64,000 nt of DNA from Curtobacterium sp. MCBD17_032 (GTDB taxonomy: Bacteria; Actinomycetota; Actinomycetes; Actinomycetales; Microbacteriaceae), in contig NZ_QKTO01000001.1 of assembly GCF_003234855.1 (NCBI RefSeq), positions 558,001 to 622,000 on the forward strand, written 5' to 3'. Of this stretch, positions 45,395-53,956 are shown one piece after another. The stretch's first letter is position 1. Every line of letters begins with the position of its first letter. A program made the position numbers and the translations under genes. The notes beneath the pieces are model-generated. The model was not told where the DNA came from, ran no database searches, and saw nothing but the letters and a program-made list of their open reading frames with translations.

Positions 45395-47242
45395 ATGTGT
45401 GGAATCGTCGGCTACGTCGGCAGCAACAGCAGCACGGACGTCCTCCTCGGGGGCCTCCGCCGTCTCGAGTACCGCGGGTACGACTCGGCGGGCATCGCCG
45501 TGATCGACCCGGCCGGTGACATGACCTCGGCGAAGAAGGCCGGCAAGCTCCAGAAGCTCGTCGACGAGCTCGAGGCGAACCCGATCGCCGACGGCGGCAC
45601 CGGCATCGGCCACACCCGCTGGGCGACCCACGGTGGCCCGACCGACGGCAACGCGCACCCGCACCTGGCCGACGGCGGCAAGCTCGCCCTCATCCACAAC
45701 GGCATCATCGAGAACTTCGCCCCGCTCAAGGACGAGCTGCTCGCCGAGGGAGTCACCTTCGCGAGCGAGACCGACTCCGAGGTCGCGGCGCACCTCGTCG
45801 CGCGCGAGTTCCGCGAGACGCACGACCTGACCGAGGCGATGCGCCGCACGGTGGCCCGGCTCGAGGGTGCGTTCACGCTCCTCGTCGTGCACGCCGACCA
45901 GCCCGGCGTCGTCGTCGGAGCCCGCCGCAACTCGCCGCTCGTGGTCGGGCTCGGCGACGGCGAGAACTTCATGGGCTCGGACGTGGCCGCGTTCGTCGCC
46001 TACACGCAGCGCGCCCTGTCGATCGGTCAGGACGAGATCGCCACGATCCGTCCCGACGGCGTCGACGTCATCCACTTCGACGGCACCCCGGCCGAGCCGA
46101 GCGAGTTCGAGGTGAACTGGGACGCCTCCGCCGCCGACAAGGGCGGCTGGTCCTCGTTCATGGCGAAGGAGATCAGCGAGGAGCCCGAGGCGGTGCGCAA
46201 CACGATCCTCGGCCGCGTGCACGAGGGCGCGATCACGCTGACCGACCTCGACCCGATCGCCGAGCGGCTGCAGCAGGTGGACCGCGTCATCGTCATCGCC
46301 TGCGGGACCGCGGCCTACGCCGGCATGCTCGGCAAGTACGCGATCGAGCAGTGGGCACGCGTCCCGGTCGAGGTCGAGCTCGCGCACGAGTTCCGCTACC
46401 GCGACCCGGTGCTCGACGACCGCACCCTGGTCGTCTCCATCAGCCAGTCCGGCGAGACGATGGACACGCTCATGGCCGTCAAGTACGCCCGCGAGCAGGG
46501 CGCCCAGGTGCTCTCGATCTGCAACACCCAGGGTGCCACCATCCCGCGCGAGTCCGACGCCGTGATCTACACGCACGCCGGTCCCGAGGTCGCGGTCGCG
46601 TCGACGAAGGCGTTCCTGGCGCAGGGCGTCGCGCTGTACCTGCTCGGCCTGCACCTCGCCACGCTGCGCGGCACGCTGACCGCCGAGCAGATCGCCACCC
46701 AGGTCGCCGAGCTGGAGGGTCTGCCGGAGAAGCTCCAGCAGACCATCGAGGACGCCTCCGGTGTCGCCGAGCTGGCGAAGTGGATGGCGGACACCCGGAG
46801 CGTGCTGTTCCTCGGCCGGCACGTCGGGTACCCGATCGCCCTCGAGGGCGCCCTCAAGCTCAAGGAGCTCGCGTACATCCACGCCGAGGGCTTCGCCGCC
46901 GGTGAGCTCAAGCACGGTCCGATCGCGCTCATCGAGCCCGGGCAGATCGTCTTCGTCATCGTCCCGTCCCCGCGCGACGCCCGCTCGCTGCACCCGAAGG
47001 TCGTCTCGAACATCCAGGAGATCCGCGCCCGCGGCGCCCGGGTGATCGCCATCGCGGAGGAGGGCGACGCCGCCGTGCTGCCCTTCGCCGACGAGGTGCT
47101 GCGCATCCCGCTCGCGACGCCCCTGTTCGAGCCGCTGCTGGCGGTCGCGCCGCTGCACATGTTCGGCATGGAGCTCGCCGCCGCCAAGGGGCTCGACGTC
47201 GACCAGCCGCGCAACCTGGCGAAGTCGGTCACCGTCGAGTAG
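45395..47242 (+). CDS. glmS: Glutamine-fructose-6-phosphate aminotransferase (isomerizing)
   Basis: Makes glucosamine-6-P from fructose-6-P and glutamine; 615 aa. The N-terminal Cys nucleophile is in MCGIVGYVGS, with GHTRWATHGGPTDGNAHPH of the glutaminase domain. Two SIS domains hold IACGTAAYAGMLGKY and SQSGETMDT; the C-terminal end DQPRNLAKSVTVE forms the ammonia channel tail. It starts an apparent operon glmS-acpS-alr1-alr2-tsaE with gaps of 6 bp or less and overlaps. Confidence 0.98.
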   Translation: MCGIVGYVGSNSSTDVLLGGLRRLEYRGYDSAGIAVIDPAGDMTSAKKAGKLQKLVDELEANPIADGGTGIGHTRWATHGGPTDGNAHPHLADGGKLALIHNGIIENFAPLKDELLAEGVTFASETDSEVAAHLVAREFRETHDLTEAMRRTVARLEGAFTLLVVHADQPGVVVGARRNSPLVVGLGDGENFMGSDVAAFVAYTQRALSIGQDEIATIRPDGVDVIHFDGTPAEPSEFEVNWDASAADKGGWSSFMAKEISEEPEAVRNTILGRVHEGAITLTDLDPIAERLQQVDRVIVIACGTAAYAGMLGKYAIEQWARVPVEVELAHEFRYRDPVLDDRTLVVSISQSGETMDTLMAVKYAREQGAQVLSICNTQGATIPRESDAVIYTHAGPEVAVASTKAFLAQGVALYLLGLHLATLRGTLTAEQIATQVAELEGLPEKLQQTIEDASGVAELAKWMADTRSVLFLGRHVGYPIALEGALKLKELAYIHAEGFAAGELKHGPIALIEPGQIVFVIVPSPRDARSLHPKVVSNIQEIRARGARVIAIAEEGDAAVLPFADEVLRIPLATPLFEPLLAVAPLHMFGMELAAAKGLDVDQPRNLAKSVTVE

Positions 47243-47248
47243 TCGGAC

Positions 47249-47647
47249 GTGATCATCGGCATCGGGGTCGACGTGGTCGACCTGGAACGGTTCGAGCGGG
47301 TGCTCGCGCGGACGCCCGCCATGCGGACGCGGCTGTTCACCGACGCCGAGCAGCTGCGCGACGGCGAACCGCGGCCGATCGCGTCGCTCGCCGCCCGGTT
47401 CGCGGCGAAGGAGGCGCTCGTCAAGGCCTTCGGGTCGAGTGCCGGGCTGAGTTGGCGCGAGCTCGAGGTCGTCGCGGACGACCAGCGGAACCCGTCGCTC
47501 ACCCTGCACGAGGGGGCGCAGCGGGTCGCGGACGACCGGGGCGTCTCGCACGTGCACCTCTCGCTGTCCCACGACGGCGGGATCGCGACGGCGTTCGTCG
47601 TCATCGAGGGCCGGGACCGGCCCGCAACGGAAGGAGCGGCCGCGTGA
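47249..47647 (+). CDS. acpS: Holo-[acyl-carrier-protein] synthase
   Basis: Transfers the 4'-phosphopantetheine arm of CoA to ACP; 132 aa from GTG 47249. Mg2+-binding residues are in GIGVDVVDLERF (Asp) and RFAAKEALVKAF (Glu), with LSLSHDGGIATAFVV at the C terminus. Overlaps alr1 by GTGA. The coaA product feeds the same cofactor. Confidence 0.96.
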   Translation: MIIGIGVDVVDLERFERVLARTPAMRTRLFTDAEQLRDGEPRPIASLAARFAAKEALVKAFGSSAGLSWRELEVVADDQRNPSLTLHEGAQRVADDRGVSHVHLSLSHDGGIATAFVVIEGRDRPATEGAAA

Positions 47648-48747
47648 GCGCGTTCACGGGGGTGACCGTCGACCGGGAGGCTGTCATCGCCAACTACGCG
47701 ACGGTCGCGGAACAGGTCGCTCCGGCGGGCGTCATCGGCGTGGTCAAGGCGGACGGGTACGGCCACGGTGCCGTGCAGGTCGCCCGGGCCCTGGTCGACG
47801 CGGGAGCGGACTGGCTCGGTGTCGCCGACCTCGACGAGGCGGTGGCGCTCCGGCAGGCCGGGATCGACGAGGGGGTCCGCATCCTCGCGTGGCTGCACGC
47901 CCCGGACGAGGACTTCCGCCGCGCGGCACGGTTCGGGATCACCCCGGCGGTGTCGAGCGTCGAGCAGCTCTCGACCGCGGCCGACGCCGACGTCCCTGCC
48001 GTGCACCTCGTCGTCGACACCGGCCTGAGCCGCAACGGCGCGGTCGAGTCGGAGTGGCCCGAGCTCTTCGCGACCGCGGCGGCGCTGGCCCGTGGTGGGG
48101 ACCGCACCCGGATCGAGGGCGTCATGTCCCACCTGTCGAACGCGTCGCGCGTCGACGACCTCGACCAGGACGCCGCGCTGCAGCGGGCCCTGGACGGCCT
48201 GGCGGCGGTCGGCATCCGGCCGGACGTCGTGCACCTCGCCGCGAGCGCCGGCAGCCTGGCGCTCCCGGAGACCCGACGCGACCTGGTGCGGGTCGGGCTC
48301 GCCCTCTACGGCCTGAGCCCGTTCCCGGACCGCACGTCGGCCGAGCTCGGGCTCCGTCCCGCCATGCGGGTGACCGCCGCGGTGCTCCGGATCGTGGCCG
48401 TGCCCGCGGGCGACGGCGTCTCGTACGGGTACACCTGGCGTGCCGAGCGGGACACCCGGCTCGCCGTGATCGGCCTCGGCTACGCGGACGGCTTCGACCG
48501 TGGTGCCGGAGGCGTCGTCTCGGTCCGCATCGGCGACCGTCGGTTCCCCGTCGTCGGCCGGGTCGCGATGAACGCGATGCACATCGACATCGGGGATGCC
48601 GACGTCGCCGTCGGGGACGAGGTCGTGGTCTGGGGCGACCCGGCGAACGGCGACCCGGCAGTGGAGGAGTGGGCCGACGCGATCGGCACGATCAACTACG
48701 AGGTGGTCGCCAGGGTCGGCCGCAGCGTGGAACGGAGGACGACGTGA
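47644..48747 (+). CDS. alr: Alanine racemase-family PLP enzyme, copy 1
   Basis: 367 aa from GTG 47644. PLP lysine in GVVKADGYGHG; substrate Arg region VVDTGLSRNG; catalytic Tyr loop GVSYGYTWRAERDT and GLGYADGFDR; phosphate-side Tyr in GTINYEVV are canonical. The usual MDQ after GRV (methionine loop) is changed to VAMNAMHIDIG, a departure from typical Alr. It is followed by a second family member with a 4-bp overlap. Makes D-Ala, or another D-amino acid, for the cell wall. Confidence 0.9.
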   Translation: MSAFTGVTVDREAVIANYATVAEQVAPAGVIGVVKADGYGHGAVQVARALVDAGADWLGVADLDEAVALRQAGIDEGVRILAWLHAPDEDFRRAARFGITPAVSSVEQLSTAADADVPAVHLVVDTGLSRNGAVESEWPELFATAAALARGGDRTRIEGVMSHLSNASRVDDLDQDAALQRALDGLAAVGIRPDVVHLAASAGSLALPETRRDLVRVGLALYGLSPFPDRTSAELGLRPAMRVTAAVLRIVAVPAGDGVSYGYTWRAERDTRLAVIGLGYADGFDRGAGGVVSVRIGDRRFPVVGRVAMNAMHIDIGDADVAVGDEVVVWGDPANGDPAVEEWADAIGTINYEVVARVGRSVERRTT

Positions 48748-49907
48748 GCGCACCACTCCGCCGCGCGGTCATCGACCTCGACGCCTACCGCGCCAACCTC
48801 GACCTGGTCCGGTCGTGGATGGACCCCGTCGAGCTGATGGCCGTCATGAAGGCCGACGCGTACGGCCACGGGCTCGAGGCCATCGCCCTGACCGCGGTCG
48901 ACGCCGGCATCCGGTGGATCGGGGTGCTGACGGTCCCGGCGGCCCTGCGCCTCCGGTCGATCGGTGTCGGCGAGGACGTGCGGCTGTTCACGTGGCAGCA
49001 CGACCCCGACCTGGACTTCCGGGACGCGATCGACTCCGCCGTCGACCTCGGCGTCTCGAACGTCGCGGAGCTGCAGCGTGTCGTGGACGCGGTCGACCAC
49101 CGGCCGGCCCGGGTGCACCTCGGGGTCGACAGCGGGTTGCACCGGGACGGCGCGACCGTCGGGGAGTGGCCGGCCCTGGTGGAGGCCGCTCGCGACGCCC
49201 AACGCGACGGTCGCATCGAGGTCGTGGCGGCGTACACACACCTGGCCGAGTCGTCCGACGAGGACGACGCCGCGGCCGTGGCGCACTTCGACGCGATGGT
49301 GGAGCAGGCCGAGGACCTCGGTCTCGACATCCGGTGCGAGCACGTCGCCGCCTCGTTGGCCGGGCTCGAGCGCAAGGAGTTCCGGAAGGACATGGTCCGG
49401 ATGGGGGCGAACCTGTTCGGCATCCCGGGCGCGGACGGGGTCTCCGCCGCCGACCTCGGTCTGACACCGGTGATGACGGTGACGAGTTCGGTCGCGAAGA
49501 CGAAGCGTGTGCCCGCCGGCACGGGCGTCTCCTACGACTACACGTACCGCACCGACGCCGAGACCACCCTGGCGCTCGTCCCGGTCGGCTACGCGGACGG
49601 CGTGGCGCGGGCGGCACAGGGGCGCGTCGAGGTGGCGGTCAACGGCACGCGGTACCCGATCGCCGGTCGGGTCGCGATGGACCAGTTCCTCGTCGACGTC
49701 GGCGACGACGACGTCCGCGTCGGCGACCCGGTGACGCTGTTCGGCACCGGTGAGGACGGCGAGATGACCGTCCTGGAGTGGGCGAGCGCGATCGGCACGA
49801 TCGGCGAGGAGGTCGTCTGTCGGATCGGCGGCCGTGTCCAGCGTGTCCACGAGGGGCACTCCGGTGCGGGCCGCGTCGGCGCATACCTGCGCGGGGAGCG
49901 GGCGTGA
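48744..49907 (+). CDS. Alanine racemase-family PLP enzyme, copy 2
   Basis: 387 aa from GTG 48744. PLP lysine in AVMKADAYGHG; VDSGLHRDG; loop VSYDYTYRTD and VGYADGVAR; GRVAMDQFLVDVG keeps the canonical MDQ. In contrast the TINYE-type C-terminal motif reads GTIGEEVV, so the conserved Tyr near the PLP phosphate is replaced. Diverged throughout from copy 1, with complementary losses. One copy may act on ornithine or diaminobutyrate, because group B peptidoglycans of this family contain such D-diamino acids (inference). Confidence 0.85.
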   Translation: MSAPLRRAVIDLDAYRANLDLVRSWMDPVELMAVMKADAYGHGLEAIALTAVDAGIRWIGVLTVPAALRLRSIGVGEDVRLFTWQHDPDLDFRDAIDSAVDLGVSNVAELQRVVDAVDHRPARVHLGVDSGLHRDGATVGEWPALVEAARDAQRDGRIEVVAAYTHLAESSDEDDAAAVAHFDAMVEQAEDLGLDIRCEHVAASLAGLERKEFRKDMVRMGANLFGIPGADGVSAADLGLTPVMTVTSSVAKTKRVPAGTGVSYDYTYRTDAETTLALVPVGYADGVARAAQGRVEVAVNGTRYPIAGRVAMDQFLVDVGDDDVRVGDPVTLFGTGEDGEMTVLEWASAIGTIGEEVVCRIGGRVQRVHEGHSGAGRVGAYLRGERA

Positions 49908-50401
49908 CCGTCCTGCTCGACACCACGGTGGACACGACCGAGCAGATGGGCGCCCTGGGTGCCCGGCTCGCCGCGGTCCTACGCGCCGGTGACCTCGTCG
50001 TCCTGACCGGGCCGCTCGGCGCCGGCAAGACCACCATGACCCGCGGCCTCGGTGCCGCGCTCGGGGCGCGGGGGCAGGTGTCGAGCCCGACCTTCGTGCT
50101 CGCCCGCACGCACCCGACCACGGCCGGGCCGGACCTCGTGCACGTCGACGCGTACCGCCTGTCGGACCCGGTCGAGCTCGACGACCTGGACCTCGACTGG
50201 GACGGTTCCATCGTCGTCGTGGAGTGGGGCCGCGGCATGGTCGACGGGGTCAGCGACAGCGTCCTCGACGTCGAGATCGTGCGCGCGACCGGTGGTGCCG
50301 CCGTGACCGGCGACGCCGTCGACCCGGACGACGTGCCGGACGAGCCGCGCCGCGTCGTCGTCTCCGGCACCGGTCCGCGCTGGCAGGGCGTCACCCTCTG
50401 A
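49904..50401 (+). CDS. tsaE: tRNA t6A biosynthesis ATPase TsaE
   Basis: 165 aa from GTG 49904, overlapping alr2. The P-loop is GPLGAGKTTMTRGL; SSPTFVLAR and the HVDAYRL (Asp) motif complete the ATPase site. It energises t6A37 formation by TsaB-TsaD. Its usual neighbours tsaB-rimI-tsaD are displaced by 6.3 kb. The C terminus carries a 30-residue Asp/Pro-rich insertion. Confidence 0.95.
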   Translation: MTVLLDTTVDTTEQMGALGARLAAVLRAGDLVVLTGPLGAGKTTMTRGLGAALGARGQVSSPTFVLARTHPTTAGPDLVHVDAYRLSDPVELDDLDLDWDGSIVVVEWGRGMVDGVSDSVLDVEIVRATGGAAVTGDAVDPDDVPDEPRRVVVSGTGPRWQGVTL

Positions 50402-52450: not shown

Positions 52451-53956
52451 ATGCTCGTGACCATCACCACCCGTGGCGAGGCCGCGCCGGACCTGTCGCA
52501 CCTGCTCCACAAGCACCCCGGGCGCGCACAGGCGTTCGACCTCAGCGTCGGGACGGCGCACGTGTTCTACCCCGCGGACACCCCGGACGAGTGCACCGCG
52601 GCCCTGCTGGTCGAGGTCGACGCGATCGCCCTCGCGAAGAGCAAGCGGTACGGCGCCGACGCGCAGGCGCTCTCGCGGTACGTGAACGACCGGCCCTACG
52701 CGTCGACGTCGATGCTGGCGACGGCGATCGGGCAGGTGTTCCGGAGCGCGATGGGCGCCCGGAGCGCCTCGCGACCGGAGCGGGCGGCGGCGCCGATGGA
52801 CCTCGAGCTCGCCCTCACCAGTGTGCCGAGCGAGCGCGACGAGCACGGGGTGGGACTCGCGACGCGGTTGTTCGCCCCGCTCGGCTGGACCGTCGAGGAG
52901 ACCCGACGCCAGCTCGACGACACCCGACCCGAGTGGGGCGACGCCGCCACGGTCGGGCTCCGCCTCCGCGGACACGTCCGGCTCGCCGACGCGCTCCGGC
53001 AGCTCACCGTCCTGCTGCCGGTCCTCGACGACGCGAAGCACTACTGGGTCGGGGACGACGAGGTCGGCATGCTCCTCCGCCGTGGCGAGGGCTGGCTCGC
53101 GGCCCACCCGCTCTGCGAGCTCATCACGACCCGCTCGCTGGCGCACCAGCGAGGACTCGTCGACGACGCGACCACGCGCCTCCTCGGCGTCGACGCGGGC
53201 CTCGACGCCGGCGTCCCGGACGGCGGGCACGCGGATGACCGGTCGGGAGGCACGGCGCCGGTCCGCACAGCACCGCCCGCCGACGACGCGGTCGGCGAGA
53301 CGCCGCTGTACCGCCGCCGCGCCCAGGCGGTGCTCACGGCGCTCGCCGACGTGCGGGCGCACACGGTCGCCGACGTCGGGTGCGGCGAGGGTGCCCTGCT
53401 CCGGCACCTGTTCGCCGACCGGTCCTTCACGACGGTCATCGGCACCGACGTGTCGCCCCGGGAGCTCGCCCGCGCCGAGCGTCGACTGCGCCTCGACGAC
53501 GTCAGCGACGAGCAGCGCGCCCGCGTGCGGTTGCTGCAGTCCTCGGTGACGTACTCCGACGACCGGATCGCCGGGCTCGACGCGGTCGTGCTCATGGAGG
53601 TCGTCGAGCACGTCGACCCCGAGCGGCTGCCGGCCCTCGAGGCCTCGGTGTTCCAGGCCGCACGGCCCGGCGCGGTCGTCGTCACGACCCCGAACGCGGA
53701 GCACAACGTCCGCTACGAGCACCTGGCGGCCGGGCGGTTCCGGCACCCCGACCACCGGTTCGAATGGACCCGCGACGAGTTCCGGGCGTGGGCGCAGGCC
53801 GTCGGGGACCGCCACGGCTACACGGTCGAGTTCCGGCCCGTCGGCGACGACGACCCCGAGGTGGGCCCGCCCACACAGCTCGCCCTGTTCCGCCGCGCGA
53901 CGCCGACCAGCACGACGGCGACCCACACCACCCCGACCGGAGGCACCGACGCATGA
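52451..53956 (+). CDS. hen1: RNA 3'-terminal 2'-O-methyltransferase Hen1 (bacterial RNA repair)
   Basis: Methylates the 2'-OH at the broken 3' end during RNA repair, preventing repeated cleavage. 501 aa from ATG 52451 with GGAGG upstream. The N-terminal half (about 1-245) is the bacterial Hen1-N domain, with HKHPGRAQAF, FYPADTPDECTAALLVEVD and AKSKRYGADAQALSRYVNDRPY. The C-terminal AdoMet domain (about 280-490) has VADVGCGEGALL, the metal-binding EVVEHVD motif, and TPNAEHNVRYE with HRFEWTRDEFRAW. The stop overlaps pnkp (ATGA), as in other Hen1-Pnkp operons. Confidence 0.95.
   Translation: MLVTITTRGEAAPDLSHLLHKHPGRAQAFDLSVGTAHVFYPADTPDECTAALLVEVDAIALAKSKRYGADAQALSRYVNDRPYASTSMLATAIGQVFRSAMGARSASRPERAAAPMDLELALTSVPSERDEHGVGLATRLFAPLGWTVEETRRQLDDTRPEWGDAATVGLRLRGHVRLADALRQLTVLLPVLDDAKHYWVGDDEVGMLLRRGEGWLAAHPLCELITTRSLAHQRGLVDDATTRLLGVDAGLDAGVPDGGHADDRSGGTAPVRTAPPADDAVGETPLYRRRAQAVLTALADVRAHTVADVGCGEGALLRHLFADRSFTTVIGTDVSPRELARAERRLRLDDVSDEQRARVRLLQSSVTYSDDRIAGLDAVVLMEVVEHVDPERLPALEASVFQAARPGAVVVTTPNAEHNVRYEHLAAGRFRHPDHRFEWTRDEFRAWAQAVGDRHGYTVEFRPVGDDDPEVGPPTQLALFRRATPTSTTATHTTPTGGTDA

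Follow-up and report, generated by a model that had tools for sequence, protein, structure and literature searches.

Why would a bacterium keep two genes of the alanine racemase (Alr) family side by side? The question is raised by the window, a stretch of 64,000 nucleotides from Curtobacterium sp. MCBD17_032, in which the two genes lie among conserved neighbours:

45395..47242, + strand: probable glmS, conserved neighbour upstream (named from its sequence; traced by similarity across loci)
47249..47647, + strand: acpS, conserved neighbour upstream (PF01648)
47644..48747, + strand: copy 1 (alr1, T1), alanine racemase family, GTG start, 367 amino acids
48744..48747, + strand: GTGA overlap of 4 bases between the copy 1 stop and the copy 2 start
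48744..49907, + strand: copy 2 (alr2, T2), alanine racemase family, acidic-pocket clade, GTG start, 387 amino acids
49904..50401, + strand: tsaE, conserved neighbour downstream (PF02367)

The earlier note on this DNA had described adjacent, overlapping Alr-family genes that both keep the lysine for pyridoxal phosphate (PLP), with MDQ changed to MNA in copy 1 and TINYE to TIGEE in copy 2, and each of these observations holds. Both proteins exceed the cut-off of 168 bits for the alanine racemase model TIGR00492 (276.4 bits for copy 1, 244.9 for copy 2). The PLP lysine is Lys35 (in VVKADG) in copy 1 and Lys36 (in VMKADA) in copy 2, and the catalytic tyrosine is also present in both, as Tyr261 (equivalent to Tyr265′) and Tyr264. 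MDQ is intact in copy 2 and TINYE in copy 1. From the GTGA overlap we infer translational coupling of the two genes; as the start nearest the stop was taken, our spacing count is biased toward overlaps.

Copy 1 occupies the place that the single alr gene holds in relatives, where the order is glmS-acpS-alr-tsaE. The pair stands between acpS and tsaE in 15 of 19 tandem loci, the window among them, so its presence here is not due to chance. In the other four loci (L027, L030, L032 and L038) acpS was seen and tsaE was not.

Could copy 2, or else copy 1, be a decaying or regulatory pseudo-racemase that has no activity of its own? Inactive-looking partners do occur among the sister pairs described below. 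In the window, however, both copies retain catalytic lysine and tyrosine, and AlphaFold2 gives high-confidence models of both (pLDDT 92.7 for copy 1 and 93.3 for copy 2). A structure comparison, made for copy 2, confirms the two-domain Alr fold (Z 49.2, rmsd 1.4 over 376 residues against 1vfh). Both copies are under purifying selection and evolve at equal rates, with dN/dS of 0.19–0.20 for each in comparison with two congeneric genomes and about 0.55 for each in comparison with one genome from another genus. Loss of function in either copy is thus very improbable.

If both copies are enzymes, what do they racemize? They share fold, PLP lysine and catalytic tyrosine with characterized Alrs (EC 5.1.1.1, TIGR00492; 1vfh of Streptomyces lavendulae, 5fac of S. 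coelicolor and 1xfc of Mycobacterium tuberculosis), and copy 1 also shares the ordinary alr gene position. As far as is known, Alrs are homodimers whose two sites are equal, whereas the chains encoded in the window have diverged from each other and the gate tyrosine is missing from copy 2. The positions at which the chains differ are listed here; in our alignment, position 361 corresponds to Tyr354 and position 227 to Ile222 of Geobacillus Alr, Tyr270′ to Tyr265′, and 171 is the position in S. lavendulae Alr.

48571..48576, + strand: copy 1 Asn310-Ala311 (MDQ to MNA), in the loop that Alr donates to its partner's active site
48697..48699, + strand: copy 1 Tyr352 (equivalent to Tyr354), inner-gate tyrosine retained
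49248..49250, + strand: copy 2 Glu169 (position 171), acidic in 62 of 62 copy-2 rows
49407..49409, + strand: copy 2 Ala222 (position 227; Ile222 in Geobacillus Alr)
49680..49685, + strand: copy 2 Asp313-Gln314, MDQ retained
49806..49808, + strand: copy 2 Glu355, where Geobacillus Alr has Tyr354

Two features serve as tests for an alanine-specific racemase, and each copy departs from one of them. The inner-gate tyrosine is Tyr in copy 1 and Glu355 in copy 2, which is therefore not filed as alanine specific; the MDQ loop is kept by copy 2 and is MNA in copy 1. Complementary change in the window pair is limited to the gate and this loop, neither copy having lost its catalytic lysine or tyrosine. 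Tyr265′ and Tyr354 determine alanine specificity and are replaced by Thr or Ala in lysine and broad-specificity racemases, in which Gly replaces Ile222 in a table of PLP contacts (PMC3485190). Broad-spectrum racemases have Asn instead of the MDQ Asp, a residue donated by the adjacent protomer (PMC10288493). In one studied Alr, alanine activity was reduced by a charged residue at position 354 (PMC4517790), which fits a non-alanine site but also a weakened one.

The earlier note listed the two motif changes as complementary losses, one in each copy. Both are real, but since each Alr chain lends its MDQ loop to the site of its partner, they are better read as two sides of one shared site than as separate losses. 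An Alr site draws its PLP lysine and Tyr354 from one chain and Tyr265′, Met312′ and Asp313′ from the other, and in a mixed dimer the MNA of copy 1 and the TIGEE of copy 2 would face each other. We therefore propose, with a probability of about 0.55, that the pair forms a heterodimeric racemase with unequal sites, one for alanine and one for a diamino acid, most likely L-ornithine, for group-B peptidoglycan. Site A would combine the lysine and Tyr354 equivalent of copy 1 with Tyr265′, Asp313′ and Gln314′ of copy 2 and yield D-Ala. It would hold the canonical catalytic and gate residues except for the carbamylated lysine; since this lysine is absent from window-type copy 1 and copy 2 alike, site A would not be fully canonical. 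Site B would be built from the lysine, Glu355, Glu169 and Ala222 of copy 2 together with Tyr265′ and the MNA-loop Asn and Ala of copy 1. Such a widened, acidic site would racemize a diamino acid, most likely L-ornithine, to supply the D-amino acid of group-B peptidoglycan. The sequences, gene order, partition of residues and tree positions are observed; from them we infer the heterodimer in this genome, its substrate and its role in the wall.

How general is this partition? Residues were counted over 62 copy-2 rows (39 from tandem pairs and 23 from the sister pairs) and 186 rows of single Alrs, about 137 of them from the family and the remainder from other actinobacteria. Identical sequences were counted once and tandem pairs per genome, and the counts leave out 13 other Alr rows that are unlinked (tag U). 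Tandem loci were taken from the top of the score ranking rather than drawn at random; four (L027, L030, L032 and L145) were classed as tandem by their residues, acpS or tsaE being unrecognised in the stretch examined, and in L011 the order of partners was set by hand. Position 361 is Glu or Asp in 62 of 62 copy-2 rows and Tyr (184) or Trp (2) in the single Alrs; position 171 is Glu or Asp in 62 of 62 copy-2 rows and in none of the 186. Copy 2 is a member of a clade of its own, which these two acidic residues in the pocket set apart. In a quick tree, calculated without a known root, a branch with SH-aLRT support of 100 has all copy-2 rows on the same side.

The tandem pairs are of two kinds. 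In 17 of 39, copy 2 has Glu361, Glu171 and Ala or Ser at 227, and copy 1 always has Asn319 followed by Ala or Ser at 320. In the other 22, from Herbiconiux, Subtercola, Planctomonas and three more genera, copy 2 has Asp361, Asp171 and Ile227, and copy 1 always has Asp319-Gln320, its residue 361 being Tyr (21) or Trp (1). Another residue takes the place of Gln320 in window-type copy 1 (17/17), in the V1 chains of the sister pairs (23/23) and also in their V2 chains, where the loop would no longer be used; Gln320 is retained in single Alrs (186/186, all with the MDQ Asp), in the other copy 1 proteins (22/22) and in tandem copy 2 (39/39). Since nine genera contribute to this perfect cross-chain matching, and the window's own genus accounts for 12 of the 17 genomes of window type, it may reflect very few events. 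Residues 171, 227 and 361 may nevertheless form a substrate code across genera.

A simpler reading, in line with the earlier note, has two separate homodimers, an alanine racemase made of copy 1 and a diamino-acid racemase made of copy 2, whose genes are mere neighbours in an operon. The retention of the lysine and of Tyr265 in both window copies would fit, as would the canonical residues at 319, 320 and 361 in copy 1 of the 22 pairs. It is harder to see why window-type copy 1 should have altered precisely the loop that serves its partner when copy 2, the chain with Glu355, retained MDQ, and the sister pairs look as if they could function only as mixed dimers. We consider two independent homodimers rather unlikely.

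These sister pairs, V1 and V2, speak for mixed dimers. We collected 23 pairs from 22 genomes of Microbacterium and six other genera. V1 has lost the PLP lysine (23/23) and most residues of the lysine side, and retains residues that Alr donates across the dimer, namely Tyr270′ (equivalent to 265′), Arg295′, Arg315′ and Met318′ (each 23/23). V2 retains Lys38, Tyr42, Arg136, His168, Ser209, Arg224 and Gly226 (each 23/23) and has lost the catalytic Tyr270′ (23/23). Neither chain looks functional alone, and because the decay is complementary, with the lysine side lost in V1 and the tyrosine in V2, we expect these pairs to be obligate heterodimers that share one composite site. At 319, a donated position, 20 of 23 V pairs have Asp, so Asn is not needed opposite Glu.

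V2 groups with window-type copy 2 (support 97) and V1 with window-type copy 1, a grouping that is only moderately supported (94 in one tree, 81/91 in another, of 130 columns); in these trees the window pair is the nearest full-length relative of the V pairs. Where looked at, V-pair genomes also keep an ordinary alr. In Microbacterium and the other genera with a separate Alr, the sister pair would have lost site A, with site B remaining. Overall, it seems to us an even bet that a duplicated Alr became a two-site heterodimer in this family and then, in Microbacterium and others, a one-site racemase of a lysine barrel and a tyrosine partner, and that this is the missing D-ornithine enzyme of the group-B wall. 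The barrel subunit would carry the PLP lysine, and the partner supplying the catalytic tyrosine would be about 215–250 residues long in its shortest forms. The series from single alr through two full paralogues and matched changes across a shared site to two half-dead partners is unusually complete and illustrates how the two catalytic bases of a homodimeric enzyme can come to be split between two genes.

Is the pair confined to the family? An order-level search covered 248 genomes, 20 from the family and 228 from others. The top match in the latter (397.8 bits) lies below the family's top single Alr (432.8 bits); this is a soft criterion for a pair outside the family, as scores of similar height are also reached by V2 rows from Microbacterium. 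By match count, the pair is absent from Microbacterium sp. Yaish 1 and Microbacteriaceae bacterium PS02068.

It is also conceivable that both copies make D-Ala (or D-Ser), the duplication providing dosage or tolerance to an inhibitor. The top sequence matches of both are alanine racemases, and the Asn that replaces Asp in copy 1 falls, by alignment, structure list and paper, at the position of M. tuberculosis Alr D322N, which reduces affinity for cycloserine. Two acidic pocket residues in 62 of 62 copy-2 rows would be unexpected in an alanine enzyme, and the ordinary alr that V-pair genomes keep as well, where looked at, speaks against it too; we consider this reading improbable.

The wall chemistry bears on the heterodimer's proposed substrate. 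There are good grounds for applying the earlier suggestion, a diamino-acid racemase that supplies the cross-bridge, to copy 2, in which the alanine-gating Tyr354 has become Glu, Glu is present at 171 and the bulky residue 227 has become Ala, but ornithine as the substrate is questioned by Microbacterium gubbeenense, which is reported as L-Lys (PMC10757982) and yet carries an intact-looking V pair. Our comparison of chemistry within the genus drew on 80 mixed loci, 16 of them titled Microbacterium, with few named species of known diamino acid. Rathayibacter and Agromyces, genera known for diaminobutyrate, have a single Alr only (one record each). The literature searched yielded no enzyme to which synthesis of the D-ornithine, D-lysine or D-diaminobutyrate in group-B walls is ascribed, and no published description of the pair; the pair offers a concrete, assayable candidate.

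Known enzymes provide partial parallels. The racemases Lyr and Bar/BsrV (4dza, 4dyj, 4beu) depart from Alr at Tyr354, at 222 (a small residue) and at the MDQ Asp (Asn); copy 2, with Glu and Ala, differs from Alr at the same two sites as these solved lysine and broad-specificity enzymes, and the Asn is found in copy 1. The pair differs in its acidic 171 and 361 and its two genes, and Glu at 354 occurs in neither Lyr nor Bar. Nor are these its closest relatives, as copy 2 scores 258 bits to S. coelicolor Alr (5fac), 125 to Bar and 108 to Lyr. The VanT serine racemase (VanG type) is likewise an Alr-family enzyme of altered specificity; the copies reach 210.8 and 208.6 bits with the VanT-G model, under its cut-off of 460, and no van genes were among the neighbours identified. 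We rank the VanT, pseudogene and plain dosage readings below the heterodimer. Trypanosomatid AdoMetDC-prozyme and deoxyhypusine synthase, enzymes activated by a catalytically dead paralogue, are also reported to have arisen by duplication followed by asymmetric loss, giving an active mixed complex; these enzymes are unrelated, and in the V pairs the two partners would instead contribute one catalytic base each to a single site.

An ATP-grasp gene (PF14397 in locus L173) adjoins V pairs in Microbacterium, and we considered it as a candidate bridge ligase. Homologues with at least 69% identity to the query are present in 12 of 14 genomes taken as V-pair-bearing (nine were read; two have none), 12 of 12 genomes taken as lacking V pairs have a homologue whose best place reaches at most 66%, and 10 genomes of other genera have no match at E 1e-20. 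Since these identities may be confounded by relatedness to the query, the association is only a lead.

Finally, if site A makes D-Ala, is it the sole source? Of 13 genomes from the window's genus, 9 gave only two matches, which are the pair itself, with the best four or fewer candidates scored per genome; for G028 and G095 this also holds with all candidates scored. The window's genome and three others of the 13 have a third Alr-family match, which could be a source of D-Ala. The window's genome also has two weak PF01168 matches elsewhere. The surroundings of its third Alr, judged by eye, are nearer the VanT kind.

The racemase genes of the window, copy 1 and copy 2, lie between acpS and tsaE:

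45395-47242, + strand, glmS
47249-47647, + strand, acpS
47644-48747, + strand, copy 1, alanine racemase family, full-length
48744-49907, + strand, copy 2, alanine racemase family, full-length
49904-50401, + strand, tsaE

The two copies overlap by GTGA and each encodes a full-length protein of the alanine racemase (Alr) family, bearing out the overlapping tandem arrangement described in the earlier note; that observation is confirmed, and its interest is greater than first stated. The nearest solved structure is M. tuberculosis Alr for copy 1 and Streptomyces Alr for copy 2. Mean pLDDT of the predicted models is 92.7 (copy 1) and 93.3 (copy 2), and the copy 2 model matches 1vfh with Z 49.2 and rmsd 1.4 over 376 residues. 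Elsewhere in the window, a PF12623 match (306 bits) identifies the gene at 52451-53956 as Hen1, a component of the bacterial RNA-repair system, and a large ORF lies next downstream of it.

Using copy 2 as query against 149 genomes of Microbacteriaceae, including Microbacterium (g78), Herbiconiux (g11), Subtercola (g8), Planctomonas (g65), Rathayibacter (g41) and other genera, we retrieved 100 stretches from among the matches listed. The loci read comprised 102 with a single alr linked to acpS or tsaE, 19 with a tandem pair (T1, T2) in this same place, and seven with a distinct pair of diverged Alr-family genes (V1, V2) away from the acpS/tsaE locus; the tandem loci were chosen for reading by highest score against copy 2 or its profile and do not form a random sample. 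V-pair genomes, where checked, keep a single alr alongside. Among the papers listed by a literature search, with most subscription journals outside its coverage, none described the T or V pairs or an ornithine or diaminobutyrate racemase for Microbacteriaceae peptidoglycan.

Residues of aligned families are numbered as in S. lavendulae Alr, whose positions 38, 129, 136, 227, 270, 319, 320 and 361 correspond to 39, 129, 136, 222, 265, 313, 314 and 354 of Geobacillus Alr. All 186 single-Alr rows carry Lys38, Tyr270, Asp319 and Gln320; position 361 is Tyr in 184 and Trp in 2, and position 171 is acidic in 0. Across 39 tandem pairs, counted by genome, positions 361 and 171 of copy 2 are each Glu in 17 and Asp in 22, and position 319 of copy 1 is Asn in 17 and Asp in 22. 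Every pair with Asn319 and Ala or Ser at 320 in copy 1 has Glu171, Ala/Ser227 and Glu361 in copy 2 (17/17, including the window; hereafter window-type), and every pair with Asp319-Gln320 in copy 1 has Asp171, Ile227 and Asp361 in copy 2 (22/22), the Asn319-type and Glu-type sets coinciding exactly. Since the window-type pairs come from three genera (12 of the 17 from the window's own genus) and the other 22 from six, few independent events probably lie behind these matched sets. The carbamylated lysine at position 129 is absent from both copies of window-type pairs, where copy 1 has Cys or Val and copy 2 has Gly, Asn or Thr; it is present in 182 of the 186 singles, both copies of all 22 other tandem pairs, and 23/23 V2. 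Among the pairs examined by the nearest-start method, a 4-base start/stop overlap occurs in 18/23 V pairs, 16/16 window-type pairs and 22/23 other tandem pairs.

Twenty-two genomes supply the 23 V pairs: Microbacterium accounts for 15 of the pairs, a Microbacteriaceae MAG for one and six further genera for 7. Lys38 is found in 0/23 V1 rows, which are 213 to 435 long (median 231); the barrel is mostly deleted in the shorter ones, and barrel-length V1 is still found in three genera. V1 keeps the residues that in Alr are donated to the partner chain: Tyr270, Arg295, Arg315 and Met318 in all 23, Tyr289 in 22 (Phe in 1), and Asp319 in 20 (Asn in 3). V2 keeps Lys38, Tyr42, Arg136, His168, Ser209, Arg224 and Gly226, each in 23/23, has neither Tyr270 nor Met318 (0/23 for each), and carries Glu (20) or Asp (3) at 361 and Glu at 171 (23). 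These counts show the decay of V1 and V2 to be complementary. Neither looks like a complete Alr singly, a putative V1:V2 dimer would contain one full site and no more, and we strongly infer from the alignments that V pairs are obligate heterodimers.

An unrooted quick tree built from 87 full-length rows (including 16 V2, 16 T2, 16 T1 and 26 Microbacteriaceae singles) has a branch of SH-aLRT 100 with every T2 and V2 row on the same side of it, and places T1 among ordinary Alrs; within this tree, V2 groups with window-type T2 (support 97). For the C-terminal domain, V1 groups with window-type T1 both in a separate quick tree, also of 87 rows (support 94), and in a careful tree of 64 rows that includes 14 of the 23 V1 (81/91). 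Among rows still using the loop, loss of Gln320 is confined to window-type T1 (17/17) and V1 (23/23). By these joins and this shared loss, the window pair is evidently the full-length relative of what, in other genomes, resembles an obligate heterodimer.

How might such a pair work? The MDQ-loop Asp of M. tuberculosis Alr is supplied by the adjacent protomer, and Asp to Asn replacement in this loop occurs naturally in broad-spectrum racemases (PMC10288493). PMC3485190 describes a gate held to about 2.7 A by Tyr265′ and Tyr354, which fix alanine specificity; in racemases that act on lysine or have broad specificity, residue 354 is Thr or Ala and, according to the table of PLP contacts, Gly replaces Ile222. 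If, as is less likely, copy 1 and copy 2 formed two homodimers, the MNA loop of copy 1 would lie beside its own Tyr354 and the MDQ loop of copy 2 beside its own Glu355, leaving the pattern unexplained. In a copy 1:copy 2 dimer, site A would set copy 1 Tyr354 opposite the copy 2 MDQ loop, and site B would set copy 2 Glu355, Glu169 and Ala222 opposite copy 1 MNA. Site B would be the site that V pairs retain, and its two acidic groups, together with a more open pocket, would accommodate the second amino group of ornithine or of a comparable acid. Site A may work unlike standard Alr, since the carbamylated lysine is lost from both window-type copies. On the most likely reading, the window pair would be a heterodimer with two unlike sites and with ornithine as a probable substrate.

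Species wall types bear on this assignment. Microbacterium walls contain D-Orn, L-Lys or diaminobutyrate, varying by species; according to the same source, the M. testaceum clade has D-Orn except M. enclense, M. sufflavum has D-Orn, and M. oxydans is a reference strain for which we take a sentence on close neighbours to mean D-Orn (PMC10757982). V pairs with Glu171, Ala227 and Glu361 occur in M. testaceum, M. sufflavum and M. oxydans, and M. allomyrinae also carries a V pair. However, an intact-looking V pair is present in M. gubbeenense, whose wall is reported as L-Lys (PMC10757982), and this is direct counter-evidence to the ornithine link. Subtercola vilae, with a tandem pair carrying Asp171, Ile227 and Asp361, has B2-gamma peptidoglycan with diaminobutyrate (PMC5945732). 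Very few named species thus suggest a putative code in which Glu/Glu/Ala specifies ornithine and Asp/Asp/Ile diaminobutyrate. Among 59 Microbacterium genomes, 10 have a single match, two (G408 and G435) have two, and 47 have three or more, with a V pair in 9/9 of those read from the 47; the second match of G408, when read, was not V2, and that of G435 scores 183 bits. One Rathayibacter record and one Agromyces record have a single Alr only. Rathayibacter walls contain mainly the L isomer.

Two different V pairs occur in one M. sufflavum genome (L297 and L298). At a Microbacterium locus (L173; 3398-5694, 3-1340), the V pair has next to it a PF14397 ATP-grasp gene on the opposite strand and a PF01996-like gene, with a GyrB/ParE-type gene on the other flank; L176 and L177 likewise have PF01996-like genes close to their pairs. 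Genomes that carry a V pair have a different ATP-grasp version from those that lack one, and the gene beside the V pair is a possible candidate for a cross-bridge ligase.

On the question of which enzyme supplies D-Ala, the pair was the only match in 9 of the 13 genomes from the window's genus, with up to 4 candidates scored in each. The genome that holds the window differs from these in having a third homologue, its one further Alr-family gene, on a different contig (L003, G000 C26:71377-72036), as well as two weak PF01168 matches (L004 and L005, on C9 and C5). By eye, the L003 gene adjoins response regulator-, D,D-peptidase-like and D-Ala ligase-like genes in a van-like cluster, and, among the queries compared, it is the one that scores best for an Okibacterium racemase (L295) and Microbacterium racemases (L301, L302).
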